41,626 nt of DNA, from IMG/VR virus record IMGVR_UViG_3300032163_000037, positions 1 through 41,626 of that record; one strand, 5' to 3'. The DNA comes from a virus. The stretch's first letter is position 1, and every line of letters begins with the position of its first letter. This document shows positions 223 through 17,622 of the stretch, in pieces. The notes beneath the pieces are model-generated. The model made no database searches. It had not been told where the DNA came from and was given only the letters and a program-made list of their open reading frames with translations. Made by a program: the position numbers and the translations under genes.

Positions 223-716
223 TTCTCTATAAACTTTTCTGGGTCTGCATGAAGACGAGTTGCCTTCGCTTTTAGAGCCATAATCTGTTCAGGAGAGAAA
301 ACATTATCTTTCACTTCTACACTAGAACCACCTTCACCACCTATTGAACCTCCAGGGCGATTTTTGAGAGCTAACCTCAGTTCAGAGATAGTCTTTTGGG
401 CTTTTCGGAATTCATCCTCCTTGGCCTTTGTCTCAAGAGTAATTTCTCTTTCAATTAAAGCTGTCTTGACTTTATCCTCGATGAGAGCCTGAATGTCCCC
501 ACCGTTTTCCCCTAAGAATTCACTGTCTGCTGGTAACTTGCCTAATCTCTTGAGGGCGACATTTTTATAGTTGTCTCTCTCCTCTTCCAATTTAGCAATT
601 CTCGCATCTCGTTCTGCGATTATGTCAGTTTCGATAACTGGCTCAATCACAACCTTGGCTGCTTCGATTGCTGCTTTCGCTGCAACCTCTGCTGCAATCT
701 TTTCTGCTTCGTTCAT
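192..716 (-). CDS. Scaffold-like capsid assembly protein
   Basis: This 174-residue protein is mostly charged helix. An Ala/Glu/Lys-rich N-terminus (1-50) leads into long coiled-coil stretches (about 35-115), then a Gly-rich hinge (about 119-130) and a basic C-terminal helix ending in LLLKK. Helical body, flexible linker and basic tail is the usual plan of phage scaffolding proteins, whose tail binds the coat protein during procapsid assembly. The position fits too: on the circle it is transcribed just before the decoration-like protein (41558) and the major capsid protein (40959), the order usual in tailed phages. It is the first gene after a strong minus-strand promoter with a structured leader. 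No protease domain is visible. The role is inferred from composition and position, as scaffolds share little sequence. Confidence 0.6.
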   Translation of the reverse strand: MNEAEKIAAEVAAKAAIEAAKVVIEPVIETDIIAERDARIAKLEEERDNYKNVALKRLGKLPADSEFLGENGGDIQALIEDKVKTALIEREITLETKAKEDEFRKAQKTISELRLALKNRPGGSIGGEGGSSVEVKDNVFSPEQIMALKAKATRLHADPEKFIEKARQNLLLKK

Positions 717-896
717 GTTTTAATTCGCTTTGTTACTTAAAAAAGTTACAGGTTGCGAACCCCTTATTATTTTTAATTCCTTTCAGCTTTCGGCTGTGGT
801 TGGAACACCAATCCTTATTGGGGACTTGGTGTAGCCACCCTATCACTGGTCTCTGGGGGAAACAATTAACAGAGTAACTACACTAAATCACTAATC
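717..896 (-). promoter_or_regulatory. Structured 5' leader of the capsid operon
   Basis: About 180 nt separate the expected transcription start (near 896) from the scaffold ATG at 716, an exception in a phage where many leaders are almost absent. On the minus strand the leader can fold, for example ACCAA with TTGGT enclosing TCC with GGA around 805-835. It contains no convincing ORF. A translational control or mRNA-stabilising element for the most abundant virion proteins is the likely role; no known riboswitch class is recognised. Confidence 0.45.
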
Positions 897-902
897 TTTT
901 AG

Positions 903-931
903 ATTATAACACAAATTGTAATATTTGTCAA
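903..931 (-). promoter_or_regulatory. Sigma-70 promoter for the scaffold-capsid genes
   Basis: Read on the minus strand it is TTGACA (926-931), a 17-bp spacer, then TATAAT (903-908) preceded by TGT, an extended -10. Both hexamers match consensus. It starts transcription near 896 toward scaffold, decoration and capsid. Confidence 0.85.
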
Positions 932-935
932 ATGT

Positions 936-1229
936 CTACTTAGATAACTTGACTAGGAGATTGTCTAAAACAAACTGCCAGTGATAAAGCATTTTTGCTG
1001 ATAATACATGCTCATCAAGGGTTGACTGTTTTAGGGCCATATTAGCTGATTCATTTATTATCGTAGAACGAAGAATCTCATATAATTGAGATGTAGCAAA
1101 ATATTTAGCTTGCTCTTTAAGAAGAGCCTTCATTTCAGGAGAAACCTTTTCACCACCAATATAAAAATCTCCCTTGTATTCTAAGAAGACCTTCTTTTCA
1201 AGGCTATTGAAGTTCACCCGTTCTGCCAT
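936..1229 (-). CDS. Small helical protein of the head gene cluster
   Basis: This 97-residue protein has no family I recognise. It is helical with alternating charged and hydrophobic runs and no cysteines, signal peptide or membrane segment. Its ATG lies 26 bases inside the 3' end of the preceding gene (1204-1434), so it is probably translated by coupling. It is the last gene of the run 2411-936 between portal and scaffold, where phages often keep head-assembly or connector-associated genes. It ends a few bases before the scaffold-operon promoter, so it closes that transcription unit. A structural or assembly role is inferred from position only. Confidence 0.7.
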   Translation of the reverse strand: MAERVNFNSLEKKVFLEYKGDFYIGGEKVSPEMKALLKEQAKYFATSQLYEILRSTIINESANMALKQSTLDEHVLSAKMLYHWQFVLDNLLVKLSK

Positions 1230-1434
1230 TGTTGTATTTATTTAAAAATTCATCTTCAGGTTTGACTTCATCTGTTCGGGCGAGAGTATAGAGCGGTTCA
1301 GCTGTCATTATTGAGGCTTTAACTTGCCCACCACTCATTTCAATAAGAGTTTCTAACATTCCTTTCAAATAGGAAATATTTGGTGTTGGCGTATTTAATT
1401 CATCTAAACACTTTGTAAGAATTTTAATATTCAT
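1204..1434 (-). CDS. Small protein of the head gene cluster
   Basis: This 76-residue protein has no recognised family. The first half is a Leu/Lys-rich helix and the second half is polar and ends in NNGRTGELQ. The start ATG (1432-1434) shares a base with the stop of the upstream gene, and its own end overlaps the next gene by 26 bases, so the four small genes 2283-936 are translationally linked. Nothing indicates an enzyme. A small virion or assembly factor is plausible. Confidence 0.65.
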   Translation of the reverse strand: MNIKILTKCLDELNTPTPNISYLKGMLETLIEMSGGQVKASIMTAEPLYTLARTDEVKPEDEFLNKYNNGRTGELQ

Positions 1435-1859
1435 TAGTCAGTTACAAGTTCTGTTACTTTTAAATCAGACATAGGTCCCTTGAGGAATTTATGCATTCCA
1501 AATTGTCCAAATACTTGAGCAAGCCTATCGAGAGTTTCAGAAGCTTCTTCTGCTGATTCATCTTTAAGTAAACCAATAAGTTCATTCATTGCATCTGTAA
1601 TCTTTCCCTGTTCTTGACCTGATAAGTCAATAACAATATCAGCCATCTTAATTTGTTTAAGTTTCTTTTCAATTTCCAAATCAATAAATCCAGCCAAAGC
1701 ATTAATGGCTGTCTGGGCATCATAGATAGTATCAACTTTCTCTAGGGTTGGATAAATCATTCTTACAACTTCTTTAAGGTGAACAACCTTTTGTTTTTGT
1801 TCCATCTCTTTAACAATATCTTCTTTACTTAAATTTTTTCTTTGAGGTTTTTTATTCAT
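1434..1859 (-). CDS. Coiled-coil protein of the head gene cluster
   Basis: This 141-residue protein is strongly helical. A Lys/Glu-rich N-terminus (1-30) precedes long amphipathic helices, including a segment rich in Asp and Glu near residues 100-115. There is no known motif. It overlaps the neighbouring genes at both ends (start 1859 lies inside the gene ending at 1852). The layout between portal and scaffold suggests a virion-assembly protein such as a chaperone or connector component, but nothing in the sequence proves this. Confidence 0.68.
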   Translation of the reverse strand: MNKKPQRKNLSKEDIVKEMEQKQKVVHLKEVVRMIYPTLEKVDTIYDAQTAINALAGFIDLEIEKKLKQIKMADIVIDLSGQEQGKITDAMNELIGLLKDESAEEASETLDRLAQVFGQFGMHKFLKGPMSDLKVTELVTD

Positions 1860-2283
1860 TGATTATATTTTGATTAGATATTAATGTTGGACAAATCTTT
1901 TTATGTTTTACTCCCTTGCTATCACATTGACTACAAAATGGTTTTATTGCATTTGGGGAATCAATTATTCTTTCTGGAATTTGAATTGGAACTTCTGCTA
2001 TTGATACATTAGATTTAATTTCAAACAATGGAGGGTGAAGTTCAAACTTAGCTTTTGATATTGATACTTTCCATAGATGGTTAAAGTCTCCATCTGAACC
2101 AACATAATCAATCATCTTCTGTTGTGTGATTCCGCGAAGGTCATCATTTGTATATCCATCAGATACAACAGTGTTATCTCTGATTTCTGATATTCCCGTT
2201 CTCTGCAAATTAAAAACTTTTGCTAAATGCTCACGAATGTCTTTAGGATATTCAATCCAATGTTGCTGAAATATGCGTTCCAT
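1852..2283 (-). CDS. Protein with C-terminal cysteine cluster downstream of portal
   Basis: This 143-residue protein begins MERIFQQHWIEYPKDIREHL. Its C-terminal third contains CSQC followed about 10 residues later by HKKIC, a likely metal-binding knuckle. The middle is beta-rich and contains SKAKFELHPPLFEIKS, which resembles short phage structural proteins rather than an enzyme. It starts two bases after the stop of the small basic gene 2286-2411 and overlaps the next gene by eight bases. The function is unknown; a minor head or connector protein is inferred from its position after the portal. Confidence 0.65.
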   Translation of the reverse strand: MERIFQQHWIEYPKDIREHLAKVFNLQRTGISEIRDNTVVSDGYTNDDLRGITQQKMIDYVGSDGDFNHLWKVSISKAKFELHPPLFEIKSNVSIAEVPIQIPERIIDSPNAIKPFCSQCDSKGVKHKKICPTLISNQNIINE

Positions 2284-2285
2284 AA

Positions 2286-2411
2286 TTATTTTGCCTTCTT
2301 AACTTTGGCTGGCAACTTCTTAAAGTTCTTTGTATGCGAAGCAAACTCCTTAGCGAGTTTGGGCATCTTTGCGAACATGTAATGTTGTTGAGCCTTTGAT
2401 TTGAAGGGCAT
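2286..2411 (-). CDS. Small basic protein MPFKSKAQQ-type (41 aa)
   Basis: The 41 residues begin MPFKSKAQQHYMFAKMPKLA and end in a Lys-rich tail. Short basic proteins with the MPFKS-AQ-x-YMFAK start are common beside packaging and head genes of tailed phages and have no assigned function. It follows a clear promoter (2459-2487) whose leader is about 40 nt, and the portal gene lies just beyond that. The gene is below the usual length cut-off, but codon pattern, the recurring N-terminus and tight fit with the gene at 2283 support it. A nucleic-acid or head-interior protein is possible given its charge. Confidence 0.72.
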   Translation of the reverse strand: MPFKSKAQQHYMFAKMPKLAKEFASHTKNFKKLPAKVKKAK

Positions 2412-2458
2412 GTTATTTATAGGAGGTAATCCCCCAGATGATTATTATTAATACTTGT

Positions 2459-2487
2459 ATTGTAACACAGATTTTAATTAAAGTCAA
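2459..2487 (-). promoter_or_regulatory. Promoter for the small head-cluster genes
   Basis: On the minus strand it is TTGACT (2482-2487), a 17-bp spacer, then TACAAT (2459-2464) preceded by TGT. It overlaps the extreme 3' end of the portal gene and gives the genes at 2411-936 their own start. Confidence 0.75.
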
Positions 2488-2488
2488 G

Positions 2489-4528
2489 CTATTGAGGAAG
2501 CTTAGATGCTCTTCCAGCAGAAGGAGAAGAAGGTTTAGCAGCAGAAGGAGTTCCAGGTTGTCCATTGGCTGCTGTTTGTCCAGTGGCTTCGGGGCCAGCA
2601 CCACCAGCAGGAGCTGGGGCTTGTTTCTTTATGTAGTCTCCAGCATTTCTTTCTGTCTTTGGATTAGATGCCATGAGAAGGTCTTTAAAGATTTTCTCCT
2701 GGTCCGCAACAGGTGAGGCAACAGCACGGTCGTAGGTTTCCAAATCAAATGCTCTTGTCAATTCAGCTGAACGTGGATTCAACACATCTGCATCAACTGC
2801 GAACTTAAACTTGTGTTCTCTAAATAGTGTAGGATTAACTTTCCAAAGTGTTGTGTTAGATTTCAAACCTCCCTGAGCTTTCAATAACATCCAACTCATT
2901 TCCAATTTCTCATCATCTGTCATTGTATCTGGCATATTGGCATCAAATGAAATCTTATTCTGTTTTCCAGTCTTACCTGGTTCTTTTGCGTAAAATGTTT
3001 TATAGAGTAATCCTCCATCACCTGTAACCTTCTCAGCATCTGGCATGGTCATGTATTGGAGAATATCTGAAAGAAGGAGTTTACCATAGGGGATAACATG
3101 GGCATAGGTAAAAAATTTAATTGAGAGACCAAGAACAGTTGTAGCGTTTTGTTCGATTCTTGAAATCTCATAAGCTGTAGAAGCTGGACCAGCACCTGCT
3201 TGTCCTTGCTGTATAGCATCTTGGGAACTTTCATGGAGAGATTGTTCAATCTTCTCAAGAGTATTCATGGCTGTATTCAATGAGGCGGCATCAGCTGTTC
3301 TCAAAGCATTGATTTGAACATCTTTATCTGAGAAAGCTAAGTTCAAACCTGGAACAATAACATCTGTTCCCATTTTATCTGAACCAGTAGTAATTGTAGG
3401 TGGGAAAAGATTAAGCTTAGTACCATCGGCAATCATTTGATAGAATTCATTTGCTAGACGGGCATCAGACTGTAGAGAGAACACAAGAGATTTACCTGCA
3501 ATAGTTCTTTCATTGATTGGTAAGTAGTAGAAACAATCCCATGGGTATTGGTGGTCAGCTCTTGGATTCTGGGCATAAGGTTTAGAAATCATAATTCCAT
3601 TAACCATAACCTCTTTAGAATCTGTAGACTTTCTCCATCGGATGACCTCCTCAACTTCCTCACCCCTCATGTGTGGGTCATAGACTTGATAGAAACCTCT
3701 ATTGGCATCATCCATAGTAACAACAATTCCTGGCTTAACAAATTTCATGTTAGGGTATTCTGATTCTGGATATTTAGCTTTAGCTCTGTCGTGAGAGATT
3801 ATTCTGCGGAGAATTATAAAATCTTGTTTCTGACAATCTCTTTCGTAGAAGTTCGCAAAGTAAACTTGGTCGCAAGAAATAGGAGTATGTTTGAAGCCAC
3901 TTTCTTCTTCATCTAAAATTTTCTTATATTTAGGAGTACCCTCTGAATCTTCACCATCTCTAACATTTCTATAAGTTTCAACATATTCTGTTAAGCCCCA
4001 TGAGATTGGAGAATAGAGGGCTGATATATTTCTGAATAAAGCAACGTAGGGATAGTTAGCTTGTTCTCTGGCCCAGTCAACAAGATAGGACATAATCTTA
4101 GCTGAATCTTCTTGCTCATCATCTGATTGATTGTAAGCAAATATTTTAGGAACAAGTTGTCTTGCTGTTTGATGGGCTGCAATTGAGACAGCAGAATTTC
4201 TAATGATAGGTCTCATGGCTTGAGATTGCCATCCACCTAATCTATCTTCCATCATTGGATTACCATCATTCTCTTGATAGGTATTAAAAGCTAACATGTC
4301 AACAATAAATCTCTGATAAAGAGACATATCATTAAATTCAGGTCTTGGGAGATGCATAGTCTGCCAACCAAGCCTATAGTCTTTTAGAAATTCAGTTAAA
4401 CATTCACGTTCTAAATCAGATGGTACATAGGCAGATAAAGAATCCTTTTTTGGATTAGGTTTTCGGACAGCAGCACTGTCTGCGATATAGCGACCATTCT
4501 TATCTAATTTATCCTGAATTATTGACAT
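2489..4528 (-). CDS. Portal protein
   Basis: At 679 residues it is in the size range of the large portal proteins of podoviruses. It lies directly after the large terminase, with seven bases between. The N-terminal part contains a helical clip/wing region with long acidic and aromatic stretches, and mid-protein segments such as GQAGAGPASTAYEISRIEQN match the usual portal stem region. The C-terminus is a low-complexity Ala/Pro/Gly/Ser tail of about 50 residues (AGGAGPEATGQTAANGQ and following), probably disordered. The portal forms the dodecameric vertex for DNA entry and the adaptor docking site. The gene lacks a Shine-Dalgarno sequence; the ATG follows an AATAAATAAATC run. Confidence 0.85.
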   Translation of the reverse strand: MSIIQDKLDKNGRYIADSAAVRKPNPKKDSLSAYVPSDLERECLTEFLKDYRLGWQTMHLPRPEFNDMSLYQRFIVDMLAFNTYQENDGNPMMEDRLGGWQSQAMRPIIRNSAVSIAAHQTARQLVPKIFAYNQSDDEQEDSAKIMSYLVDWAREQANYPYVALFRNISALYSPISWGLTEYVETYRNVRDGEDSEGTPKYKKILDEEESGFKHTPISCDQVYFANFYERDCQKQDFIILRRIISHDRAKAKYPESEYPNMKFVKPGIVVTMDDANRGFYQVYDPHMRGEEVEEVIRWRKSTDSKEVMVNGIMISKPYAQNPRADHQYPWDCFYYLPINERTIAGKSLVFSLQSDARLANEFYQMIADGTKLNLFPPTITTGSDKMGTDVIVPGLNLAFSDKDVQINALRTADAASLNTAMNTLEKIEQSLHESSQDAIQQGQAGAGPASTAYEISRIEQNATTVLGLSIKFFTYAHVIPYGKLLLSDILQYMTMPDAEKVTGDGGLLYKTFYAKEPGKTGKQNKISFDANMPDTMTDDEKLEMSWMLLKAQGGLKSNTTLWKVNPTLFREHKFKFAVDADVLNPRSAELTRAFDLETYDRAVASPVADQEKIFKDLLMASNPKTERNAGDYIKKQAPAPAGGAGPEATGQTAANGQPGTPSAAKPSSPSAGRASKLPQ

Positions 4529-4535
4529 GATTTAT

Positions 4536-5816
4536 TTATTGAAACTTAGTATTAATTTTTGGTTTAAATCCCAGTTGTGAAGAGTAATGTATTTTGGGTT
4601 TATCAGATTCTTGATTATCCATATCGGTCATGATTACATAACGGATTGCATCCATTGCATCATCGTTTTCCTTTAGTGGATTTTCATCAGCAATCTTTCC
4701 CTTATCGTCAGGATAAGAATATGTTTCAAATTCCTGAATAACATTTATGCAATGACTTAAAACTTTCAATCTTCCTTGCTTTAACATTTCCTGAACTTTA
4801 GAAATTCCAGAAATGACGGAGCCTCTACCCTTATTAACTTCTCTGATATTGACACCTGCCTTACGCAAGCTTGCAATACCAGATGCATTTTCTGGGTCTG
4901 GATAAACCTTATTATAACACAGAGAGACTACTTTGTCAACTATCTCAGATTCTGTCTTTCCAGTCTGAAAGAACTCATCTGTAATCCAATAATTACCATC
5001 GTAATCCTTTTTGATTGTTATAACAGCACAGGGGTGAGTATGGCCCCAGTCCACACCTCCAAGTTTGTATAGGGTTTCGAAATCTGCTGGAAGCTCATCA
5101 ATGACATGTATGTCTCTGCTGAAATCCTTATAGACTAATCCTTCTCTCTTCTTAAACTCTCCCAATATTTCCTGAGCATACCTATCATCAGTCATTTCCT
5201 CCTTCATCTTTACAATTTCTTCGGGTGGAAGGTGGGGATTGTCATGAGATGTAAAATGGAAATATTTGTAGTCTGGGTCTGTTCCATCTTTTAATGTTAA
5301 ATCATAGAAATGATTAAAACCATTGGGAGTAGAGATAAATGTTGCCCCTCCCTTCAAGTCAATGAGGGTTGGTCGGAGAATTTCTTCCCATCCGAACATG
5401 AAATTCTTATACTTAGAGACCTCATCAAGAAAGATATGATTATTCTTAACACCGACCCCCTTTCCTCTTTCCTGCACAGCTTCCCAGCCATATAGAACAA
5501 TCAGAGATGTTCCGCCAAATCTATTACGGATATTTAATTCAAGGCGAGATTCATTTGGCTCACCTATAATTAAAGGCCCACAAATATCCTTCAATGCTTT
5601 CCACATAATGTCTCTGGCATCATCTCTTGTTGGAGCATAGTAAGGAACTCTAGCATTCTCATTTGATACCGCTATGGCAAACATTTCCCAAGCAACTAAT
5701 GTAGACTTCCCCCACCTACGGCCAGCGTTGATGACTCTAAACCTGTGTGTGTCTTTTGCCACGACCCTTTGGGTATCGTGTAGATTAAATGGTTTTTTTT
5801 CTTGTATAGTATCCAC
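4536..5816 (-). CDS. terL: Terminase large subunit
   Basis: This 426-residue protein is the packaging motor ATPase and headful or cos nuclease. Walker A is AGRRWGKST (31-39) and Walker B is HIFLDE (D131, E132). The RNase H-like nuclease domain starts at GGVDWGHTHP (D256) and ends with the acidic motif DDAMDAIRY (386-394). All key motifs are intact. The longest frame starts with GTG at 5816, six bases after the stop of the 28-residue gene upstream; no ATG lies at a better position, so GTG is accepted. It acts with TerS (6034-6525) and docks on the portal (2489-4528), the canonical order. Confidence 0.96.
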   Translation of the reverse strand: MDTIQEKKPFNLHDTQRVVAKDTHRFRVINAGRRWGKSTLVAWEMFAIAVSNENARVPYYAPTRDDARDIMWKALKDICGPLIIGEPNESRLELNIRNRFGGTSLIVLYGWEAVQERGKGVGVKNNHIFLDEVSKYKNFMFGWEEILRPTLIDLKGGATFISTPNGFNHFYDLTLKDGTDPDYKYFHFTSHDNPHLPPEEIVKMKEEMTDDRYAQEILGEFKKREGLVYKDFSRDIHVIDELPADFETLYKLGGVDWGHTHPCAVITIKKDYDGNYWITDEFFQTGKTESEIVDKVVSLCYNKVYPDPENASGIASLRKAGVNIREVNKGRGSVISGISKVQEMLKQGRLKVLSHCINVIQEFETYSYPDDKGKIADENPLKENDDAMDAIRYVIMTDMDNQESDKPKIHYSSQLGFKPKINTKFQ

Positions 5817-5821
5817 CCAGA

Positions 5822-5908
5822 TTATCTCTTACCGTATTTTTTAAGGTTTGAGTTAGTTACTTGTTTCTTACCTTTCTTTTTGGCCTTGACTAAAGTCTTG
5901 ACAGCCAT
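5822..5908 (-). CDS. Tiny Lys-rich protein between terminase genes (28 aa)
   Basis: The 28 codons read MAVKTLVKAKKKGKKQVTNS and a short basic end, with ten or more lysines. The ATG follows AAAATAAT, the start context used throughout this genome, and it fits between its neighbours without gaps. No homologue is recognised. A DNA-binding role would fit the charge, but at this length the call rests mainly on spacing and context. Confidence 0.5.
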   Translation of the reverse strand: MAVKTLVKAKKKGKKQVTNSNLKKYGKR

Positions 5909-5909
5909 A

Positions 5910-6032
5910 TTATTTTTCTGAAACTTCCTCAACAGATGATTGAGATTCTGTTCCTTCTTCACGCAACATTTCGTTAGTGATAGGTACGATTCCGTCTGTA
6001 TCTGCTTGAACTAAATTTTTTACTCCTGACAT
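5910..6032 (-). CDS. Small acidic protein between terminase genes (40 aa)
   Basis: The 40 residues begin MSGVKNLVQADTDGIVPITN and end in an acidic Ser/Glu-rich tail. The start (6032) is one base after the TerS stop and the stop is one base before the next ATG, so coupled translation is likely. No motif or membrane segment is seen and the function is unknown. Confidence 0.55.
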   Translation of the reverse strand: MSGVKNLVQADTDGIVPITNEMLREEGTESQSSVEEVSEK

Positions 6033-6033
6033 T

Positions 6034-6525
6034 TTATTTATCTTCTTCGTTAGTTTCTAATGGTTCGACTTTCTCTTCTTTGTTTAGATTGTATTTCTCC
6101 AATAACTCTGCTGGCATAAATACAATTGGTGCCCCATCCTTTCCAGTAACTTCGCTCCTCTCTGAATATCCTTCATCCTTACCCTGTGTCTTAGCAATAA
6201 ACTTAGCTGTATCATTCTGGACACGGACTAAGTCAGCCTTTGGCTTTCCAGCCTCATCAGTAACATCCATTTCTAATGTTTTCTTTAAAACCTTCTCAGC
6301 CTTATTCAACATCTGGATTCTCCTTACCTTAGCTTTCCACCATCCAACATTAGTAATAATATCTGATGTCTGGTCTGTATACCCAGCGGCCATAGCTGAC
6401 CTCTTGGCATTGTTCCATGTTGGAGACTTTGGGTCTACATAATTCTTCCAAGCTTTAGCTTGTCTTAAATCAAATTTGTGTTCCTCATCTGAGGGATTAA
6501 ATTCTTCAATAGTTTCTTCATTCAT
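6034..6525 (-). CDS. terS: Terminase small subunit
   Basis: This 163-residue protein recognises phage DNA for packaging. Residues about 20-75 contain the helix-turn-helix-like pattern of terminase small subunits: a KAWKNYVDPKSPTWNNAKRS stretch, then SAMAAGYTDQTSD and a VGWWK helix. A coiled-coil oligomerisation helix follows, then a C-terminal segment with APIVFMPAELLEKYNL. A tail of this kind commonly contacts TerL. It is the first gene after a consensus promoter whose -10 ends only seven bases before the ATG, so the mRNA is nearly leaderless. It leads the operon TerS-TerL-portal. Confidence 0.88.
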   Translation of the reverse strand: MNEETIEEFNPSDEEHKFDLRQAKAWKNYVDPKSPTWNNAKRSAMAAGYTDQTSDIITNVGWWKAKVRRIQMLNKAEKVLKKTLEMDVTDEAGKPKADLVRVQNDTAKFIAKTQGKDEGYSERSEVTGKDGAPIVFMPAELLEKYNLNKEEKVEPLETNEEDK

Positions 6526-6532
6526 ACAAAGG

Positions 6533-6561
6533 ATTATAGCATAGATTTAATATATTGTCAA
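6533..6561 (-). promoter_or_regulatory. Consensus promoter for the terminase operon
   Basis: Minus-strand TTGACA (6556-6561), a 17-bp spacer, then TATAAT (6533-6538) preceded by TGC. The -10 is seven bases from the terS ATG, implying a leader of about one or two nucleotides. It is divergent from the plus-strand promoter at 6608-6636. Confidence 0.85.
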
Positions 6562-6607
6562 CTACGTTGTGCTGATTCTGATTACAGAATAACAGTCAAC
6601 TAATTAC

Positions 6608-6636
6608 TTGACTTCCAACTACATGTGTGCTATAAT
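6608..6636 (+). promoter_or_regulatory. Plus-strand promoter of an intergenic transcript
   Basis: TTGACT (6608-6613), a 17-bp spacer, and TATAAT (6631-6636) preceded by TGC. No ordinary gene follows; transcription would run about 210 nt to the terminator at 6827-6854. Confidence 0.78.
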
Positions 6637-6642
6637 AGTTCT

Positions 6643-6854
6643 AATTGAATGGCTGGAATCCCAGTACCATTTTGAATATTCTTTTCTCTAGGGGACTTTT
6701 CTTTTATTCTTTACTTAACCGTTCTTCGCCGCTTGGTTAGTTTTCGGTTCTTCTTTTCTTTAAGGTATTTAAATAACAACATAATCAAGGAGAAGACGCC
6801 ATGCTCAAAATAACATATCAGATATTAAAAAACCCCTATTTCTAGGGGCCTTTT
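6643..6854 (+). ncRNA. Candidate small RNA between a promoter and a terminator
   Basis: A promoter and an intrinsic terminator bracket this roughly 210-nt stretch, which has no normal gene. Hairpins are visible: CTGG-aatc-CCAG near 6653 and AACC with GGTT around 6719-6740. A CTAGGGG copy at 6688-6694 could compete with the terminator's 3' arm for the CCCCTA at 6833-6838, an attenuator-like choice. Near the end, AAGGAGA stands before a 14-codon ORF (ATG 6801, MLKITYQILKNPYF) whose stop is inside the terminator. That is one of the few strong Shine-Dalgarno sites in the window. It may be a regulatory RNA, a leader peptide or both. Confidence 0.55.
6827..6854. terminator. Bidirectional intrinsic terminator
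   Basis: The stem is CCCCTA (6833-6838) with TAGGGG (6843-6848) and a 4-base loop. On the minus strand it is followed by six T (A-run 6827-6832), and on the plus strand by CCTTTT. It ends the minus-strand gene 6869-7015 and the plus-strand transcript from 6643. Confidence 0.85.
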
Positions 6855-6868
6855 AATTATACCTTCTA

Positions 6869-7015
6869 TTATAGCTGGGAGACTGCTTGTCTCAATCCAA
6901 TCATACCTAGAGAAGAAATGACAATACTCATGTTACCTACATACAAGCCATAGATAACTCCTGCAAATGCAATAATGAACGTCTTGTAACCATTCATAAA
7001 TGATAATATTTTCAT
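6869..7015 (-). CDS. Small holin-like membrane protein (48 aa)
   Basis: The 48 residues begin MKILSFMNGYKTFIIAFAGV and continue with a second hydrophobic stretch (about 24-40, GLYVGNMSIVISSLGMIGL). Short proteins starting MK-LSF-NGYKT with one or two membrane helices are common in phages and often annotated as holin-like. It is transcribed on its own, from a consensus promoter only seven bases before the ATG to a terminator 14 bases after its stop. This differs from its operon neighbours and suggests independent timing. A holin or inner-membrane modifier is the likely role; biochemical function cannot be read from the sequence. Confidence 0.75.
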   Translation of the reverse strand: MKILSFMNGYKTFIIAFAGVIYGLYVGNMSIVISSLGMIGLRQAVSQL

Positions 7016-7021
7016 ACCCTA

Positions 7022-7050
7022 ATTATAACATACTTTGGCCTGATTTGCAA
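7022..7050 (-). promoter_or_regulatory. Promoter of the holin-like gene
   Basis: Minus-strand TTGCAA (7045-7050), a 17-bp spacer and TATAAT (7022-7027) preceded by TGT, seven bases from the ATG at 7015. The transcript is essentially leaderless. Confidence 0.8.
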
Positions 7051-7295
7051 GCATACATATCTACAACTATAAGTCAAATATATCTTTGTATTACATTCTA
7101 TTACAATTATTGTCAACTCCTGTGTATCAGTCTGCTAGTACATAGATTATATGGCGTGTAATACATTCTATTAAAAGAAATTGTGCTTACGGGGTGTGGA
7201 GTCCATGTACATCACACGGGACAAAAAAGGGGCTAAGCACCCACCCCCCATATCTTATATATTAAGCCACAATACAATAGAAAAGCATTCTCTTA

Positions 7296-7329
7296 ACAGT
7301 GTCGCACAATATACATTTTGCGACACTGT
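7296..7329. repeat. 11-bp perfect inverted repeat
   Basis: ACAGTGTCGCA (7296-7306) and its exact complement TGCGACACTGT (7319-7329) are separated by 12 AT-rich bases. The long arms with an AT-rich centre fit a dimeric protein's operator or a cruciform. There is no T-run, so it is not an intrinsic terminator. Confidence 0.85.
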
Positions 7330-7425
7330 ATCATAATCATCAATAGGCATAGGCTTTCATGCATTGTGTACTATGTTTCATATGCTACATTTCACAAGTT
7401 TCACGATACTTTGTCAAATATAAGC

Positions 7426-7439
7426 GTTTCACGTGAAAC
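7426..7439. promoter_or_regulatory. parS: parS-like site (ParB binding site core)
   Basis: GTTTCACGTGAAAC is a perfect 14-bp palindrome equal to the core of the bacterial chromosomal parS consensus (TGTTTCACGTGAAACA). Only the outermost base on each side differs (C instead of T and A). ParB-CTP clamps load at such sites and work with ParA to segregate chromosomes and plasmids. Related partial sites surround it: GTTTCA at 7375, GTTTCACG at 7398, and TCACG-6-CGTGA about 20 bp downstream. No ParA or ParB gene is visible here, so host ParB would be the ligand. The match is seen directly; binding is inferred. Confidence 0.75.
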
Positions 7440-7593
7440 CTTTATAGGCTATTAGGGGAATCACGCTAAAACGTGAAAAAGGGACATTTTCTCATCCTTT
7501 TCACTCTTTTACCATCATATAGTATTGAATCTTAGTACCAGTGTATTGATACAATTGTAATACCTGTTCTAGCAATCAATATATGTATAAAAC

Positions 7594-7622
7594 TTGACAA
7601 CTAACGACATTCTGTGTTGTAT
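7594..7622 (+). promoter_or_regulatory. Probable early promoter
   Basis: TTGACA (7594-7599), then a 17-bp spacer to a weak -10 TTGTAT (7617-7622). It would read toward the small early genes from 7719 through a leader of about 90 nt that includes TTATCCATA. The -10 is poorer than in other promoters here, so activation or repression is possible. Confidence 0.5.
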
Positions 7623-7718
7623 TTAGTTATCCATAGGTAATTTCATTTTGCCATGCTATATTGGAAATGTAGGAAGTCTAGTCAACTAACTACATATTAC
7701 AATAAACATTAAAAATAT

Positions 7719-7826
7719 ATGATCGGAGAATATAGAAAGCAAAAAGAAGCGAGGGAAAGGAATAGTTTTATCATGGTAATCGGCATGATAATAATAACAT
7801 TTATCTATTTATCAATTAAATTATAA
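7719..7826 (+). CDS. Small early membrane protein (35 aa)
   Basis: The 35 residues begin MIGEYRKQKEAREYRN-like, with a charged N-terminus (MIGEYRKQKEARERNS). One hydrophobic helix follows (FIMVIGMIIITFIYLSI), then a Lys near the end. It is the first gene of the plus-strand early cluster, with AT-only bases before the ATG. A single-pass membrane peptide is clear from the sequence and its role is unknown. Confidence 0.6.
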   Translation: MIGEYRKQKEARERNSFIMVIGMIIITFIYLSIKL

Positions 7827-7830
7827 TCAT

Positions 7831-7950
7831 ATGACAAATCAACAAACACTTAAAATGCTATATGGACAGTTTAAAATGAAACTGGCTCTTTTAGAGCCTC
7901 AACAGCAAGCTGATATGTTAGAAAATTTATCAGTAATATTAAACCAATAA
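7831..7950 (+). CDS. Small early helical protein (39 aa)
   Basis: The 39 residues begin MTNQQTLKMLYGQFKMKLAL and continue as one amphipathic, Gln-rich helix. It starts four bases after the previous stop and ends five bases before the next ATG, a tight early operon pattern. No family is recognised; inhibitors of host enzymes in phages are often this size, but that is only an analogy. Confidence 0.55.
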   Translation: MTNQQTLKMLYGQFKMKLALLEPQQQADMLENLSVILNQ

Positions 7951-7955
7951 ACATC

Positions 7956-8099
7956 ATGAAAACATATATCATAAACAGTGAAAAATCGAATCAGTCTTAT
8001 TACAGAGAAAATACAACGGCAAATGAGTGTAGGCATTGGATTATAAACCATTTGGACTTGTCTATGAACTGGAGTATACATGAAGTACCATTAAAATAA
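7956..8099 (+). CDS. Small early protein (47 aa)
   Basis: The 47 residues begin MKTYIINSEKSNQSYYRENT and include a Trp-rich centre (CRHWIINHLDLSMNWSIHEV). It resembles short globular phage early proteins. Spacing of five bases to the previous gene supports it. No function is assigned. Confidence 0.58.
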   Translation: MKTYIINSEKSNQSYYRENTTANECRHWIINHLDLSMNWSIHEVPLK

Positions 8100-8117
8100 C
8101 ATTGTATTTCCTCGCTT

Positions 8118-8197
8118 GGCCCTATTAGGGCCTTGCAAGGGCATATAATCACCTTAATATAACGATTATAGCCTTACTGGTCGCTTGCTAGTGGCTA
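8118..8197 (+). promoter_or_regulatory. Two hairpins ahead of the gene at 8215
   Basis: GGCCCT-att-AGGGCC (8118-8132) forms a perfect 6-bp stem. A second fold pairs TAGCC (8169-8173) with GGCTA (8193-8197), with ACT/AGT inside. The first is not followed by a T-run, so they look like leader structure, processing sites or a weak terminator between the 47-residue gene and the next one. Confidence 0.5.
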
Positions 8198-8214
8198 GGC
8201 TGGTCATTGACAAC

Positions 8215-8475
8215 ATGAAATATCAAGCATTAAAGAAATTGAAGACTAAAACAAAGCTTTTAAAGCTTTGTGATACTTTAAAAGAAGCTCACGAAGTTAT
8301 AAAAGCAGAGGGAGCAAAGTTTCATAGTTTCAGTTATATTGGAGGCTTTCCAATTTATGAGCGAGAAAAGGAATTGGGCCGAAACTATTATAATATACAA
8401 GGATTACATGAGCAACTAGGAATAGTCCTTGGAATAAGCGAAGAAGAGTTATTAGCTTTTAATTTTAACCAATAA
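8215..8475 (+). CDS. Hypothetical early protein (86 aa)
   Basis: The product begins MKYQALKKLKTKTKLLKLCD and is a Lys/Leu-rich helix pair followed by a mixed region with aromatic residues (FHSFSYIGGFPIYEREKELG) and an acidic end. The frame is open further upstream to a TTG at 8185, but that part overlaps a hairpin and ATG 8215 gives a normal start, so ATG is chosen. It ends one base before the next gene. No known domain is recognised. Confidence 0.65.
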   Translation: MKYQALKKLKTKTKLLKLCDTLKEAHEVIKAEGAKFHSFSYIGGFPIYEREKELGRNYYNIQGLHEQLGIVLGISEEELLAFNFNQ

Positions 8476-8476
8476 C

Positions 8477-8758
8477 ATGAAACTATATGCAACTACAACG
8501 AGCGAGAGGGCAAGCAAGGGGCAAGGGGGTAATGATTATCTTGAAATCAATATAACAGATGATGTTAAAAACATATTAGCAAGTATTGGAACTAAGCCAA
8601 AAGAAAAATGGTTATCCAATCCAATAATACAGATATGTTATAACAGCCATATTGTAGATATAAAAATTCATGATATGGCAAAGGAATCTAGTAATTTTTG
8701 GGGCATATCAGAAAAAACAAAAGAAGTTAAAAATAAAATGGATAATTGGAAATATTAA
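8477..8758 (+). CDS. Hypothetical early protein (93 aa)
   Basis: The 93 residues begin MKLYATTTSERASKGQGGND and contain beta-strand-like stretches (DYLEINITDDV, PIIQICYNSHIVDIKIHD). The C-terminus is Lys-rich. It is separated from the previous stop by one base. The SERASKGQGG start resembles proteins described only as hypothetical in phages; no function can be read. It ends the first early block, just before a terminator. Confidence 0.65.
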   Translation: MKLYATTTSERASKGQGGNDYLEINITDDVKNILASIGTKPKEKWLSNPIIQICYNSHIVDIKIHDMAKESSNFWGISEKTKEVKNKMDNWKY

Positions 8759-8761
8759 AAG

Positions 8762-8815
8762 GTGAAAAGTAAAAAGCCGAAGCAAAGGCAAAAAACAAAA
8801 GACCGCAAATACTAG
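8762..8815 (+). CDS. Possible tiny Lys/Arg-rich peptide (17 aa)
   Basis: A GTG-started frame codes for MKSKKPKQRQKTKDRKY, almost all basic or polar. It begins just after the previous stop and ends inside the terminator stem. It could be a real basic peptide, or merely the A-rich run-in to the terminator. Low confidence. Confidence 0.25.
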   Translation: MKSKKPKQRQKTKDRKY

Positions 8816-8831
8816 CTATTGCGGTTTTTTT
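8803..8831 (+). terminator. Intrinsic terminator of the first early block
   Basis: CCGCAAATA (8803-8811) pairs with TATTGCGG (8817-8824), with one bulged A and a 5-base loop, followed by seven T. A typical rho-independent terminator. Confidence 0.88.
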
Positions 8832-9234
8832 GTGTTTACTTTACTCCCTTTGTGAAGCCGTATAATGCAATATGAGAGGATTTATATTAAAGCTTAACTT
8901 TAATCCATATATTGAATTTTAATTGACTGGTAAGCAGTATACAGCATTGTGTTAGTATTCTAGGGCTTATGCAATATATAACCATTGTCAGATTTTCAGG
9001 GGTTACATATTGAGACTACATGAGCATTAGAACACAAACACAAATCAACATTTCAATATTTAGTTTTGGATTTATATATATTAAAATCTAATTTTTGGTT
9101 CACGATGTTTAAGGGAAAATCCATATTTTAATTTTTTGAAATCTTTGAAATTACAATAAAAAGCATGCTTTTCCTATATGGTAGTTATCCCCATATTAGC
9201 TTGCATTATAATCCTTAATAAGTATCATAAAGAT
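8832..9234. other. Gene-poor spacer with palindromes
   Basis: About 400 bases without a secure gene. A TATAAT with weak -35 context stands near 8866. ATTAAAG-5-CTTTAAT forms a perfect 7-bp inverted repeat around 8887-8905, and AAAAGCATGCTTTT (9159-9172) is a perfect 14-bp palindrome. TATAAT at 9207-9212 may serve the next gene. An early-gene operator or a short RNA could be here; nothing decisive is visible. Confidence 0.45.
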
Positions 9235-9456
9235 ATGACAATATACACATATGTGCTTCCAGAGCATTACAAACTGAATACACTTAATAGATTACGCAAA
9301 TTAGAATCCACAATAGGACTTCATAAATATGATTATATTCAAATAAGAGAGAATCAATTTAGAGACTTCATAGAGCTTAGGGGACTTAACTGGAGGCGAG
9401 ACCAAGACTTAATTGAGAAGGTTACATTCTGCGGAGCGAATTTCTTTATCATTTAA
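9235..9456 (+). CDS. Hypothetical early protein (73 aa)
   Basis: From ATG 9235 the product begins MTIYTYVLPEHYKLNTLNRL and is a mixed alpha/beta protein with many Arg and aromatic residues, ending in CGANFFII. The frame is open to ATG 9178, which would add a hydrophobic 19-residue leader (VVIPILACIIIL). The internal start is preferred because a TATAAT at 9207-9212 lies inside that extension. If the long form is real, it would be a membrane-anchored version. Function unknown. Confidence 0.55.
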   Translation: MTIYTYVLPEHYKLNTLNRLRKLESTIGLHKYDYIQIRENQFRDFIELRGLNWRRDQDLIEKVTFCGANFFII

Positions 9457-9465
9457 TTAAATAAC

Positions 9466-9672
9466 ATGACAATAAATACATACAAAGAGGGTAAATTAGA
9501 GATTGAATACAATAGTGATTACATTAGCGATACATGTGTAGACTGTAAGGGAGAGATTATAGGTAATTTAAAGAAGAATTATGAAGCGAGAGGTAATTAC
9601 TGTGGAACATGTAACGCTAAATATGCCACCGCTATTAAAAATAAAAATTTAGAAAAAAAAGAGGCAATATAG
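9466..9672 (+). CDS. Zinc-ribbon protein (68 aa)
   Basis: This small protein holds two CxxC knuckles, CVDC (near residue 24) and CGTC (near 46), spaced as in a zinc ribbon, with a Lys/Arg-rich linker and C-terminus. Such stand-alone ribbons in phages usually bind DNA, RNA or a host polymerase. It ends 60 bases before a terminator that separates it from the ncRNA-like region. Confidence 0.72.
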   Translation: MTINTYKEGKLEIEYNSDYISDTCVDCKGEIIGNLKKNYEARGNYCGTCNAKYATAIKNKNLEKKEAI

Positions 9673-9732
9673 CTGTCAAGTATTGACAAGATTTCTGTCT
9701 AGTGTTGACAAAAATCACTTACAAAAAGTTAT

Positions 9733-9761
9733 CCACAACAAAAAGTTGTGGGTATTTTTTT
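9733..9761 (+). terminator. Intrinsic terminator whose 3' arm holds the next -35
   Basis: CCACAAC (9733-9739), five A, GTTGTGG (9745-9751), then GTATTTTTTTA. The stem is perfect. A DnaA box, TTATCCACA (9729-9737), overlaps the left arm, and TTGTGG of the right arm doubles as the -35 of the following promoter. Confidence 0.85.
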
Positions 9762-9775
9762 ATGCGTGATATAAT
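9746..9775 (+). promoter_or_regulatory. Promoter fused to a terminator
   Basis: -35 TTGTGG (9746-9751), 18-bp spacer, -10 TATAAT (9770-9775) preceded by TGA. Transcription would begin near 9782 and read through the structured region into the gene at 10041. Confidence 0.7.
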
Positions 9776-9781
9776 TTAGTA

Positions 9782-9941
9782 GGAGAAAATGTTTTTTGGT
9801 TTCTGCACAAGAATTAATTAAAAATAATGTTCCAGCTCCCATGCTCTAAACGTAGTTGTAATCAACAAGTGTTTACACTAAACATAATTATTAATTTGGT
9901 CTCTTGTGTAGAAATCAGCAAATGTCTTGCCGTGTCGGCAA
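9782..9941 (+). ncRNA. Structured RNA or long leader, rod-like
   Basis: After the promoter, TTTCTGCACAAGA (9800-9812) pairs with TCTTGTGTAGAAA (9902-9914), 13 bp with one G-U. An AT-rich extension (AATTAAT both sides) follows, and a large central open region holds two small hairpins. The overall shape, a long rod with a central bubble, recalls 6S RNA, but the length and sequence are not enough to assign that family. A further hairpin TTGCCG-tgt-CGGCAA lies at 9927-9941. No T-run follows, so it may also act as the 5' leader of the operon at 10041. Confidence 0.5.
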
Positions 9942-10040
9942 TGTTCGTTGAGAGATGGTGTTAATGAATACAGTCAAAACAAACAAGCTTTATGCAAACA
10001 AACAATGGATTTATCGTATTACTATTGACACTATCACCTA

Positions 10041-10391
10041 ATGAATATCACAACAAAGAAGAATAATCTAGTGATTGAGATTCCTCTACAGGAAGAAAAT
10101 TACAATCCCTGGACAGGCAAGTCAGAAGGTAAGGTTGACAACATAATAGGTATTATAGACGGAAAAGAAATGGGATTCTGTTATCTCATTAATATGGACT
10201 ATAAAGGCAAGGCAGACCAACATAGTGATTTCTTTTTTAAATTTATGGGACTTAGGGAACAGTTTGAGAATCTATGTGGAGAACTCGGAATAAATTGCAT
10301 AACACAAGATTATATCAGATGTGTTGGTTGTCGAACCATCATGCTAAGTGATTTAAGTGATTATTGTTTAGATTGCTCACAAGATTTATGA
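10041..10391 (+). CDS. Protein with C-terminal zinc knuckles, upstream of initiator (116 aa)
   Basis: The first 90 residues form a mixed domain with NIIGIIDGKEMGFCYLIN. The last 30 hold CVGC and CLDC, a compact zinc ribbon. It overlaps the next gene by four bases (ATGA), so the two are translated together. A partner or accessory factor for the replication initiator-like protein is a reasonable inference; no family is recognised. Confidence 0.65.
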   Translation: MNITTKKNNLVIEIPLQEENYNPWTGKSEGKVDNIIGIIDGKEMGFCYLINMDYKGKADQHSDFFFKFMGLREQFENLCGELGINCITQDYIRCVGCRTIMLSDLSDYCLDCSQDL

Positions 10392-11194
10392 AATATAAAC
10401 CTGGAACATTTTCGATAACTCCAAATAAAGAATTATTGCGTGGTAAACCATCTGAAATGATTGCTGTTTATTTTTGGATATGTGATTATTCAGACAATGA
10501 TGGTGTTTGCTATCCAAGTAGAAAAAGATTAGCTGAAGATTCTGGTTGTAATATAAAAACTGTTGATAAGTATATTAAAAAACTTGAAGAATTAGGATTG
10601 CTTGTCAAAACTTGCCGCCAAAAACCTAATTCTAAAGAAAAATCAAGTAATATATATCAATTGATGGTAGGGGCAGAAACGGTGCTACCTAGTGGTCAAA
10701 ACGGTGCTACCCCTAGCACCGAAAACGGTGCTGTAACTATACCCACTATTAACTATACCCACTTAACAATAGAAAGTCCTTCACCTGATAAGCTAACTTT
10801 GCCCACGAATCGTGGTAATACTCCTGTTAAGAGGTTGATTACTATTTATAGAGATTTGTATATTAATAAATATGGTAAGACTGATTCTTTAAGTTCGTTA
10901 CATGGTCAGCTTAATATAATATTCGGCTCAATAATCAAAGACCTAAGCGAAATTCAAATTGCCGCACTTTTAATTATATTCTTTAATTGGAATGGAATTA
11001 CTGGGAATGATGAATATGCAAAACAGAAATTAGCAAAAGCGATGTACCCTATTGGATATTTTAAGACTGGTTTGCCCAATTATGAAACATACGCCCGAAA
11101 TGTATTAAATATGCCATTTGATGATGACAAAGCATTATTATTAGAAGTGGCAAGGGAAATGGTTAGAATTAAAAATGAACAATCCGCAGGATAA
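10388..11194 (+). CDS. Winged-helix replication initiator-like protein
   Basis: From ATG 10388 the product is 268 residues and begins MKYKPGTFSITPNKELLRGK. Residues about 15-90 are a winged helix of the type found in phage replication proteins (IAVYFWICDYSDNDGVCYPS, then RKRLAEDSGCNIKTVDKYIK, then KLEELGLLVK). A Ser/Thr-rich linker follows, then a helical C-terminal domain (about 135-260). The arrangement matches initiator or DnaD-like replisome organisers that bind origin DNA and recruit the helicase. A longer frame reaches a TTG at 10364 but overlaps the previous gene, so the coupled ATG is chosen. The gene's end lies in a stem-loop that carries a DnaA box. Confidence 0.7.
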   Translation: MKYKPGTFSITPNKELLRGKPSEMIAVYFWICDYSDNDGVCYPSRKRLAEDSGCNIKTVDKYIKKLEELGLLVKTCRQKPNSKEKSSNIYQLMVGAETVLPSGQNGATPSTENGAVTIPTINYTHLTIESPSPDKLTLPTNRGNTPVKRLITIYRDLYINKYGKTDSLSSLHGQLNIIFGSIIKDLSEIQIAALLIIFFNWNGITGNDEYAKQKLAKAMYPIGYFKTGLPNYETYARNVLNMPFDDDKALLLEVAREMVRIKNEQSAG

Positions 11195-11218
11195 CGAGCG
11201 AAGCGAAGTTATCCACAG
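11180..11218 (+). promoter_or_regulatory. Stem-loop module with DnaA box, copy 1
   Basis: CAATCCGCAGGAT (11180-11192) is followed after 16 bases by GTTATCCACAG (11208-11218). GGATAAC (11189-11195) pairs perfectly with GTTATCC (11208-11214). TTATCCACA (11209-11217) is a consensus DnaA box. The same layout recurs at 17184-17223. The left end is also the last codons of the initiator-like gene. Confidence 0.75.
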
Positions 11219-11225
11219 TTTAGAT

Positions 11226-11254
11226 TTGCATTAATAATTGATAAGAGAGATAAT
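11226..11254 (+). promoter_or_regulatory. Promoter for the gene at 11261
   Basis: TTGCAT (11226-11231), 17-bp spacer, GATAAT (11249-11254), six bases before the ATG. A nearly leaderless transcript is implied. Confidence 0.6.
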
Positions 11255-11260
11255 ATATTT

Positions 11261-11431
11261 ATGGAAGAACAAATAGATATTTTAATAAGAGAAGATGAGA
11301 GGAGATATGCAGAAGAAAACGAGGTCGATAAAATCCTAACCCTCTTCACTGACTGGCTAAGCAAACGAGGAATATCAATGCCACTATCAGATTATGAAGA
11401 TTTAAAAGATAAGATAAGTAAAATATTATGA
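11261..11431 (+). CDS. Small acidic protein ahead of repeat proteins (56 aa)
   Basis: The 56 residues begin MEEQIDILIREDERRYAEEN and are rich in Glu, Asp and Ile/Leu, forming amphipathic helices. The stop overlaps the next start by four bases (ATGA). It leads the operon 11261-12576 with the two repeat proteins. No family is recognised. Confidence 0.62.
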   Translation: MEEQIDILIREDERRYAEENEVDKILTLFTDWLSKRGISMPLSDYEDLKDKISKIL

Positions 11432-12009
11432 GAATAACATTAAAATTTTTAAAAAATAAAGAAGCCTGTCAAGACGGTATTGATTGGGTTGTAGAAAACA
11501 AGCTTATAGGCTTAAAAGATTCTGAAATGATAAAAGACTTAATGAAAGCAGACAAACTTGATTGGGCAAATTGGCTTATTGTCAGGTGTATGAATTATAA
11601 GCAATATGTTAGTTATGCAGTATATGCAGCGGAGAGTGTTTTGGATATTTATGAAAAGAAATATCCTAATGACAAAAGACCAAGAGAGGCTATTGAAGCA
11701 GCTAAATTATGTATCAAAAATCCATCAAAGAAAAATAAAGTCGCCGCCTCCGCCGCCTATTCCGCCTCCGCCTACTCCGCCTACTCCGCCGCCTACTCCG
11801 CCTCCTCCGCCTCCTCCGCCGCCTTCTCCGCCTCCTCCTCCGCCTCCTCCGCCGCCTTCTCCGCCTCCTCCGCCGCCTACTCCGCCGCCTACTCCGCCGC
11901 CTTCTCCGCCGCCTACTCCGCCTCCTCTACCGCTGCCTCCGCCGCTAAAAAAGACTTACAAATTAAGATATTAAAAAATGGTCTTACATTATTAACTAAG
12001 TTTAAATAA
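11428..12009 (+). CDS. Imm-5-like protein with Ala/Ser/Tyr repeat tract
   Basis: Residues 1-100 match the pattern of Imm-5-like putative immunity proteins: ACQDGIDWV, a paired Trp motif (DWANWLI), then YAAESVLDIYEKKYPNDKRP followed by REAIEAAK. Residues 106-173 are a tract of Ala, Ser, Tyr and Phe (AAYSASSAAYSA-like), then a short Lys-rich end. Family members carry Ala-rich helical tracts here, but this one is extreme. It is built from GCC, TCC, TAC and TTC codons, so the DNA is locally GC-rich and nearly G-only-at-codon-start, unlike its AT-rich neighbours. The family name comes from its place beside toxin loci; a protective role for this phage protein is unproven. It is directly followed by a second repeat protein. 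Confidence 0.7.
   Translation: MRITLKFLKNKEACQDGIDWVVENKLIGLKDSEMIKDLMKADKLDWANWLIVRCMNYKQYVSYAVYAAESVLDIYEKKYPNDKRPREAIEAAKLCIKNPSKKNKVAASAAYSASAYSAYSAAYSASSASSAAFSASSSASSAAFSASSAAYSAAYSAAFSAAYSASSTAASAAKKDLQIKILKNGLTLLTKFK
11743..11946 (+). repeat. Low-complexity trinucleotide-like tract (GCC/TCC/TAC)
   Basis: About 200 bases of GCC, TCC, TAC and TTC codons coding for Ala, Ser, Tyr and Phe. The units are irregular (GCCGCCTACTCC, GCCTCCTCC and others), as produced by slippage or unequal exchange. The other plus frame reads as proline-rich, which is a by-product. Confidence 0.9.
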
Positions 12010-12576
12010 ATGAAAACATTCACAATAAAAAAAGAACACTTAGATAAGGATAACTATTACATAGAAGAAGAAGATTTTTCAGATTATTCAAAAAAATATG
12101 ATGGAAATATAGAAATTGAATCAGGATTGGGAACAGTTAAATTTAAGAAAGGATTATATTGCTCTTATTCAATAATTGCAAAAACTGGTTCTGGTATCTC
12201 CGCTGGTTATGGTATCTCCGCTGGTTGGGGTATCTCCGCTGGTTATGGTATCTCCGCTGGTTGGGGTATCTCCGCTGGTGATGGTATCTCCGCTGGTTAT
12301 GGTATCTCCGCTGGTTATGGTATCTCCGCTGGTTGGGGTATCTCCGCTAAATTAGAATTATCAGCATCATATAATATTTTTGCTGGAACTTCTAAATGGA
12401 AAAAAGCAGAAGGTGATGAAAAAAAGATAACCTGTGGAAAATTAGTTAAAGGAACTATCGCTTATGGTGACCTTTGTGAAACAGGACTGCCTAAAGAAGA
12501 AATAGCTGTTATGCCGATTGCAAACATAGATGAAATTATAAACATCAATGGTAAGAATTATAAGAGAATAGATTAA
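12010..12576 (+). CDS. GISAG hexapeptide-repeat protein (188 aa)
   Basis: Nine near-identical hexapeptides of form GISAG(Y/W/D) occupy residues 62-113, framed by a folded N-terminal part (1-60) and a C-terminal part with YNIFAGTSKWKKAEGDEKKI and PIANIDEIININGKNYKRID. Short G-I-x-A-G-aromatic repeats suggest a narrow beta-solenoid with an aromatic ladder. Proteins with such repeats occur in phages and gut or environmental bacteria without assigned function. The ATG follows the previous stop directly (taaATG), so it is co-translated with the Imm-5-like protein. Nucleotide copies differ mostly in the last codon, so the array expanded recently. Confidence 0.68.
   Translation: MKTFTIKKEHLDKDNYYIEEEDFSDYSKKYDGNIEIESGLGTVKFKKGLYCSYSIIAKTGSGISAGYGISAGWGISAGYGISAGWGISAGDGISAGYGISAGYGISAGWGISAKLELSASYNIFAGTSKWKKAEGDEKKITCGKLVKGTIAYGDLCETGLPKEEIAVMPIANIDEIININGKNYKRID
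12193..12348 (+). repeat. 18-bp tandem repeat, nine units
   Basis: The unit is GGTATCTCCGCTGGTTAT, with the last codon TAT, TGG or GAT; the ninth unit is cut to 12 bases. The units are otherwise identical. Aromatic codons alternate Y-W-Y-W-D-Y-Y-W. Copy number is expected to vary between relatives. The array is coding and has no spacers, so it is not CRISPR. Confidence 0.95.
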
Positions 12577-12601
12577 TTAACTCGCCAATAGGCATAAATA
12601 T

Positions 12602-12753
12602 ATGGAAAACATTTGTCTCATTAAAGGATGTAAAAACATTATGGTCGTATCTGCTTTGAAAGTGGACTTGGAAAGAAAGGAAAATCTCCAGCGTTCGGCA
12701 GTGTCGTAATGAAACTCCAAGATACATTTGAAATAGAACTTATTAAAAAGTAA
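12602..12753 (+). pseudogene. Small cysteine-containing gene broken by a frameshift
   Basis: The frame from ATG 12602 reads MENICLIKGCKN and then turns into poor sequence. The -1 frame from 12634 reads HYGRICFESGLGKKGKSPAF, GSVVMKLQDT and FEIELIKK to a stop at 12753. Joined at the five-A run at 12632-12636, they give one sensible product of about 50 residues with spaced cysteines. A one-base change in the A-run, in the genome or the assembly, is the simplest explanation. A programmed shift is less likely because the site is not a classic slippery heptamer. Confidence 0.45.
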
Positions 12754-12755
12754 CC

Positions 12756-12791
12756 CCTACCCAGTAGGTCTCAAACCCAAGAGTATTTGGG
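12756..12791 (+). promoter_or_regulatory. Two small hairpins before the gene at 12800
   Basis: CCTAC-cca-GTAGG (12756-12768) and CCCAA-6-TTGGG (12776-12791) sit side by side eight bases before the start codon. There is no T-run. They may separate the broken gene from the next one or modulate its start. Confidence 0.45.
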
Positions 12792-12799
12792 AACGAATT

Positions 12800-13084
12800 A
12801 TGAAAATAACAGCAATTATAATAAATGGTAGACACGGTGGAACTTTCTATAATGATTTTGAGTATTCACCTACTATTAAACTACCTATAACACACAAAAA
12901 TCAAATATCTATGGGAGAAAAATATGATAATTCTGTTAGATTAAATGATGATATAACTTATCAAGAATGTTTTAGGTCTGTTGATAAAAGATGTGTTATG
13001 TATTCCGAAAGAGGAAGATGGGAAGAAATAAAAGATAATATTGCACCTAAATTAAAACCAACTTACCCAATTAGTTTATGGTAA
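12800..13084 (+). CDS. Hypothetical protein (94 aa)
   Basis: The product begins MKITAIIINGRHGGTFYNDF and appears beta-rich, with two cysteines (YQECFRSVDKRCVMYSERGR) and a C-terminal Pro-rich end. No known family is recognised. It stands alone between a two-hairpin leader and a 55-base gap. Codon usage matches the surrounding genes. Confidence 0.62.
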   Translation: MKITAIIINGRHGGTFYNDFEYSPTIKLPITHKNQISMGEKYDNSVRLNDDITYQECFRSVDKRCVMYSERGRWEEIKDNIAPKLKPTYPISLW

Positions 13085-14117: not shown

Positions 14118-14120
14118 CCC

Positions 14121-17617: not shown

Positions 17618-17622
17618 ATAAA

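Follow-up and report, generated by a model that had tools for sequence, protein, structure and literature searches.

A probable short non-coding or antisense transcript from a strong promoter in a phage with predicted leaderless genes

Introduction

What is transcribed from the roughly 210 bases between the packaging genes and a small convergent ORF of this virus, and could the RNA be a switch? An initial annotation of the locus had reported a consensus promoter, a terminator with a competing pairing partner, and a 14-codon ORF behind a strong Shine-Dalgarno (SD) site, and had suggested a switchable attenuator or a trans-acting RNA. Here we analysed the locus in its phage context; the window analysed was the whole virus record (41,626 bases).

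Results

By ORF layout, the minus strand carries the structural and packaging genes, from 6525 to 192 and from 41558 to 23251, and the plus strand carries genes of replication type between 7719 and 23159. PHROGs and Pfam identified terminase, capsid, primase-helicase and exonuclease in the window. Five terminase hits were found in the genome collection: one relative at 45% on a contig (L049) binned as Candidatus Nomurabacteria, relatives at 48% on two bacterial contigs (L050 and L051), and two weaker hits (28% and 34%) in Terriglobia and Chloroflexi bins. Because terminase relatives occur on the Nomurabacteria-binned and the other bacterial contigs, a Patescibacteria host appears likely, to the extent that the binning is right. 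Counting against such a host, the portal protein had no match in 379 Patescibacteria genomes, in a search run without a positive control. A 16S search for the host anti-SD sequence gave nothing in the single genome searched.

The promoter was confirmed as annotated. On the plus strand at 6608-6636, the promoter scan found TTGACT, a 17-nt spacer carrying TG, and TATAAT; sites with this spacer, the TG and at least 11 of 12 matches numbered seven in the window, whereas 30 shuffles averaged 0.03. Of the extended -10 sites in the window, 12 are strong, this one among them; it is a real, strong promoter of host type. As the promoter is real, a short RNA from near 6643, the start expected from the promoter position, is plausible. 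The surroundings were also as annotated. Back to back with the 6608 promoter, the scan placed the packaging promoter on the minus strand (6561-6533), with a predicted leaderless start of the 163-codon ORF 6034-6525, and a 48-codon ORF converges from the other side (6869-7015, minus strand).

Most of the strong promoters lie directly on a start codon. In seven of the 12 (6561, 7050, 22514 and 28820 on the minus strand; 19428, 22546 and 28847 on the plus strand) an ORF of 38 codons or more begins with an ATG 6-9 nt past the -10 element, as compared to 31 of 1011 control hexamers; given this spacing, the predicted mRNAs are leaderless. The other five comprise 4939, inside the terminase gene, three promoters with leaders of about 32, 47 and 187 nt, and 6608. 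A TATAAT-type element was also seen 6-7 nt before an ORF in four of eight loci of the Nomurabacteria family, a set picked by similarity and biased to that extent. One paper (PMC12641178) mentions leaderless translation with regard to YchF, a mention that does not extend to a gene survey. SD-like motifs preceded none of the 44 gene starts examined and 30 of 1505 other ATGs, and no start in a separate list of 56 had AGGAG or longer.

This bears directly on the 14-codon ORF (plus strand, 6787-6845), which consists of AAGGAG at 6787, ATG at 6801 and TAG at 6843-6845, with the stop falling inside the downstream hairpin. All the elements described by the initial annotation are present. However, the SD site carries little weight, since the gene starts of the phage lack such sites; SD-plus-start combinations occur 22 times in the window (17.75 in shuffles), and ATG 6801 scored -5.30 with a weight matrix of the real starts, which is the median of random ATGs. 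The ORF is probably untranslated.

The predicted transcript as a whole (6643-6857, plus strand, about 210 nt from promoter to hairpin) likewise appears untranslated. Over 6649-6813 the three plus frames had codon-usage z values of 0.31, 1.94 and 1.79, whereas the central 90% of genuine coding stretches span 2.2-6.3; the minus frames were also below that range. The test can miss very short genes, as the early 36-codon ORF at 7719 fails it too; one gene start was entered as 8218 for 8215, one codon late and in frame. A recoded frame from 6649, with TGA as a sense codon, was dropped: TGA is the stop codon of three of the 53 genes used, and codon usage gives no signal in this frame. The fold of the 214-nt RNA was no better than chance (z -0.40, 59 of 200 shuffles equally stable), and mild stability was confined to a 57-nt piece at 6704-6760 (z -1.79).

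Rfam (4227 families, gathering score) gave no match in the whole window. With E values up to 5, nothing credible was found in 6540-7100, the best being rimP on the minus strand (31.8 of 47 bits), and His_leader and Phe_leader reached 18-20 bits against cut-offs of 49-55. In the phage collection no DNA relative was found for 6400-7300 (distant mode) or for 1-20000 (near mode). The protein relatives there were at best about 31% for the terminase and 49% for the exonuclease, with three weak records for the capsid and none for the portal. Searches of the virus contigs with the 163-codon ORF, the terminase alone or the 48-codon ORF returned no relative; the portal had one (L033), and 13 terminase loci were obtained, ten at 47-63% identity and three at 24-26%. 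When 6526-7100 was compared with those ten (L033 and L037-L045), no convincing match was detected, the best having an E value of 0.039 over 24 nt. L036 and L033 belong to one contig; L046-L048 were excluded as too distant. L041 and L042 are apparently the same phage, upstream DNA is short in several loci (74 bases in L044, 836 in L038) and several contigs break off close to the terminase. The initial annotation had made conservation of the region a test of its proposal; no homologue was found, but the sole relatives, at this terminase identity, are too distant for comparing an intergenic RNA.

The exact pattern of the SD region was found in 30 virus loci, 29 of them readable, with ORFs unlike the 14-codon ORF, and an 18-mer of the RNA recurred in three loci as chance matches in GC-richer DNA. 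Weak matches (E ≤ 1) to 6550-7050 were present in 140 of 147 Patescibacteria genomes; the better ones were short, and many fell on the promoter or terminator of the 48-codon ORF, which reflects similar signals rather than homology.

The hairpin at 6824-6857 had been annotated as the terminator of the RNA. A hairpin is present, but it is built for the opposite strand: its energy was -19.0 kcal/mol (z -4.27) on the minus strand and -12.3 kcal/mol (z -2.42) on the plus strand, where A-C mismatches replace the two G-U pairs that extend the minus-strand stem. The U-tract score was -4.53 on the minus strand and -1.3 on the plus strand; the other convergent terminator of the genome, near 23169, is good both ways (-4.9 and -3.95). 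As energy and U-tract both favour the minus strand, the hairpin most likely terminates the 48-codon ORF of the minus strand.

Concerning the alternative pairing, CTAGGGG at 6688-6694 does copy part of the 3' arm of the hairpin, and the plus strand of the window has exactly two copies (6688 and 6842). The two folds are not of similar stability, as the 6688 pairing reached -33.3 against -39.8 kcal/mol, a deficit of 6.5 kcal/mol, with a probability of 0.0001 in the finished RNA. Such a copy is also chance-like: 6.6% of shuffled upstream sequences contained TAGGGG, and 23% reached the same duplex energy with the 5' arm. While the 3' arm is still missing, the 6688 alternative is the predicted fold, so it may have a transient role at that stage.

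The convergent 48-codon ORF was identified from the ORF list and the scan, with a predicted leaderless promoter at 7050-7022 (minus strand). The ORF, annotated as holin-like, is present, but it has no family match, and its coding score is low (z 2.62). In the scan, the plus strand lacked any terminator from 6857 to 7719. An RNA stopping at 6857 would overlap the 3' end of the ORF mRNA by about 33 nt, and a read-through RNA would cover the full ORF.

Several other sites were noted in the window. The 700-base non-coding region that separates late from early genes contains GTTTCACGTGAAAC (7426-7439), an exact match to the 14-base core of the bacterial centromere site parS; the core was absent from 100 shuffles, and among 61 loci occurred in L031 only, which is this window. 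An inverted repeat, ACAGTGTCGCACAAT / ATTTTGCGACACTGT, is located at 7296-7329 and shares a GTCGCA...TGCGAC core with 4629-4652 of the distant relative L033, upstream of its packaging genes; judged from sequence, it is a candidate operator, origin or recombination site. The box TTATCCACAGTT, which we take to resemble a DnaA box, occurs on the plus strand at 9729, 11209, 17214, 19410, 22519 and 28831, with a variant at 7627, at most places 38-50 bases upstream of plus-strand -10 elements. TTATnC(A/C)CAGTT was found five times, all on the plus strand, against 0.07 expected. The box is possibly a control site of early promoters, and the 6608 promoter lacks it. The repeat GTCAACTA near several promoters was too weak to be regarded as an operator. 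The most extreme pyrimidine tract of the window, 100 bases with 85% pyrimidines on the plus strand, lies inside an ORF at 11772-11871. On the minus strand, a leader of about 187 nt (716-903) runs from a promoter at 931 to a 174-codon ORF. Its hairpin has 17 uninterrupted pairs (z -4.46) and was more stable than every shuffle, and the leader has no Rfam match; as a functional RNA it is a stronger candidate than the 6608 RNA.

Discussion

The 210 bases probably give rise to a short RNA of an ordinary kind, non-coding or antisense, rather than to a switch. The reading we prefer, though only tentatively, is a leaky, convergent, antisense-type untranslated transcript that would mildly damp the 48-codon ORF in cis, the antisense action being suggested by the layout. 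The host-type promoter would drive rightward transcription from about 6643. The RNA would stay untranslated: no frame has the codon usage of the phage and neither of the two ATGs has a convincing start, in what is a very short sequence. Polymerase would then meet a hairpin shaped for the opposite ORF, and because of this strand asymmetry termination in the plus direction may be partial. RNA that stops there would overlap the 3' end of the small mRNA, and RNA that reads through would be antisense to 6869-7015 including its leaderless start. Damping through convergent transcription and antisense pairing would be analogous to other short antisense phage RNAs, such as lambda OOP and P22 sar (PMC12197685). 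The 6608 RNA would resemble these in being a short transcript with its own promoter opposite a phage gene. It differs in that its complementarity to the convergent mRNA is a 3' overlap only, unless the terminator leaks, and in having no known homologue.

Nearly as likely as this antisense-type transcript is that the promoter is vestigial, the plus half of a divergent pair that has lost its leaderless small gene and now makes a functionless RNA. The other two divergent pairs (22514/22546 and 28820/28847) do drive leaderless genes both ways, the first ATG, 12 nt past the -10 element of the 6608 promoter, opens just eight codons in a frame with no codon signal, and the chance-level fold fits such a loss. 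Drift, however, would not long keep a promoter this intact and strong, and the lost gene is seen in no relative. A small-protein gene is unlikely, whether the 14-codon ORF, the eight-codon ORF at 6649 or a 31-codon ORF starting with TTG at 6645. The context of ATG 6649, which lies near the expected transcript start, is fair (matched by 11% of random ATGs), and TTG 6645 has the spacing typical of leaderless genes in this phage, although leaderless TTG starts are as a rule weak. The missing codon signal in every frame argues against all three, not finally given the real 36-codon ORF that fails the same test, and the random context of ATG 6801 against the first. We also doubt the proposed trans-acting RNA pairing with phage or host mRNAs. 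It would have its own promoter and, as a potential partner for purine-rich mRNA, a stretch rich in pyrimidines (0.72; 0.4% of 100-base windows reach this value), but the best duplex energy with 53 phage gene starts was -25.5, the same as the mean best of shuffled RNA (-25.5). The target 5910-6032 alone beat 98% of 60 shuffles, as expected among 53 targets, and neither the fold nor Rfam favours such an RNA.

The switchable attenuator, with its terminator opened either by translation of the 14-codon ORF or by pairing at 6688, is very improbable. Leader-peptide attenuators of the trp, his and phe type share with this locus a short ORF ending in a terminator-like hairpin and a possible competing pairing, here the predicted fold until the 3' arm is made. 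Unlike them, the locus has no co-directional operon, as no plus-strand gene follows the hairpin until the early block and the ORFs from 7719. It also has no start signal of the phage type, judging from the absence of SD use and the context and codon usage of the leader ORF, its competing pairing is weak and chance-like, and its hairpin faces the other strand. Least probable of all is that the SD-led ORF, which runs into the one-sided terminator, has an exceptional start site through which ribosomes determine whether the RNA ends short or continues as antisense over the adjacent small ORF. If true, translation of the 14-codon ORF would tie the timing of the small ORF to the state of the host ribosomes.

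A short non-coding phage transcript would be one of many, and the phage context matters more. The leaderless, SD-free gene expression of a probable Patescibacteria phage is more surprising than the 6608 RNA, in a phage group that is sparsely sampled and whose relatives sit on contigs binned as Nomurabacteria. Since the genes lack SD sites and most strong promoters lie directly on the start codon, gene-finding rules from E. coli, such as taking a strong SD site to mark a gene, mislead in this phage.
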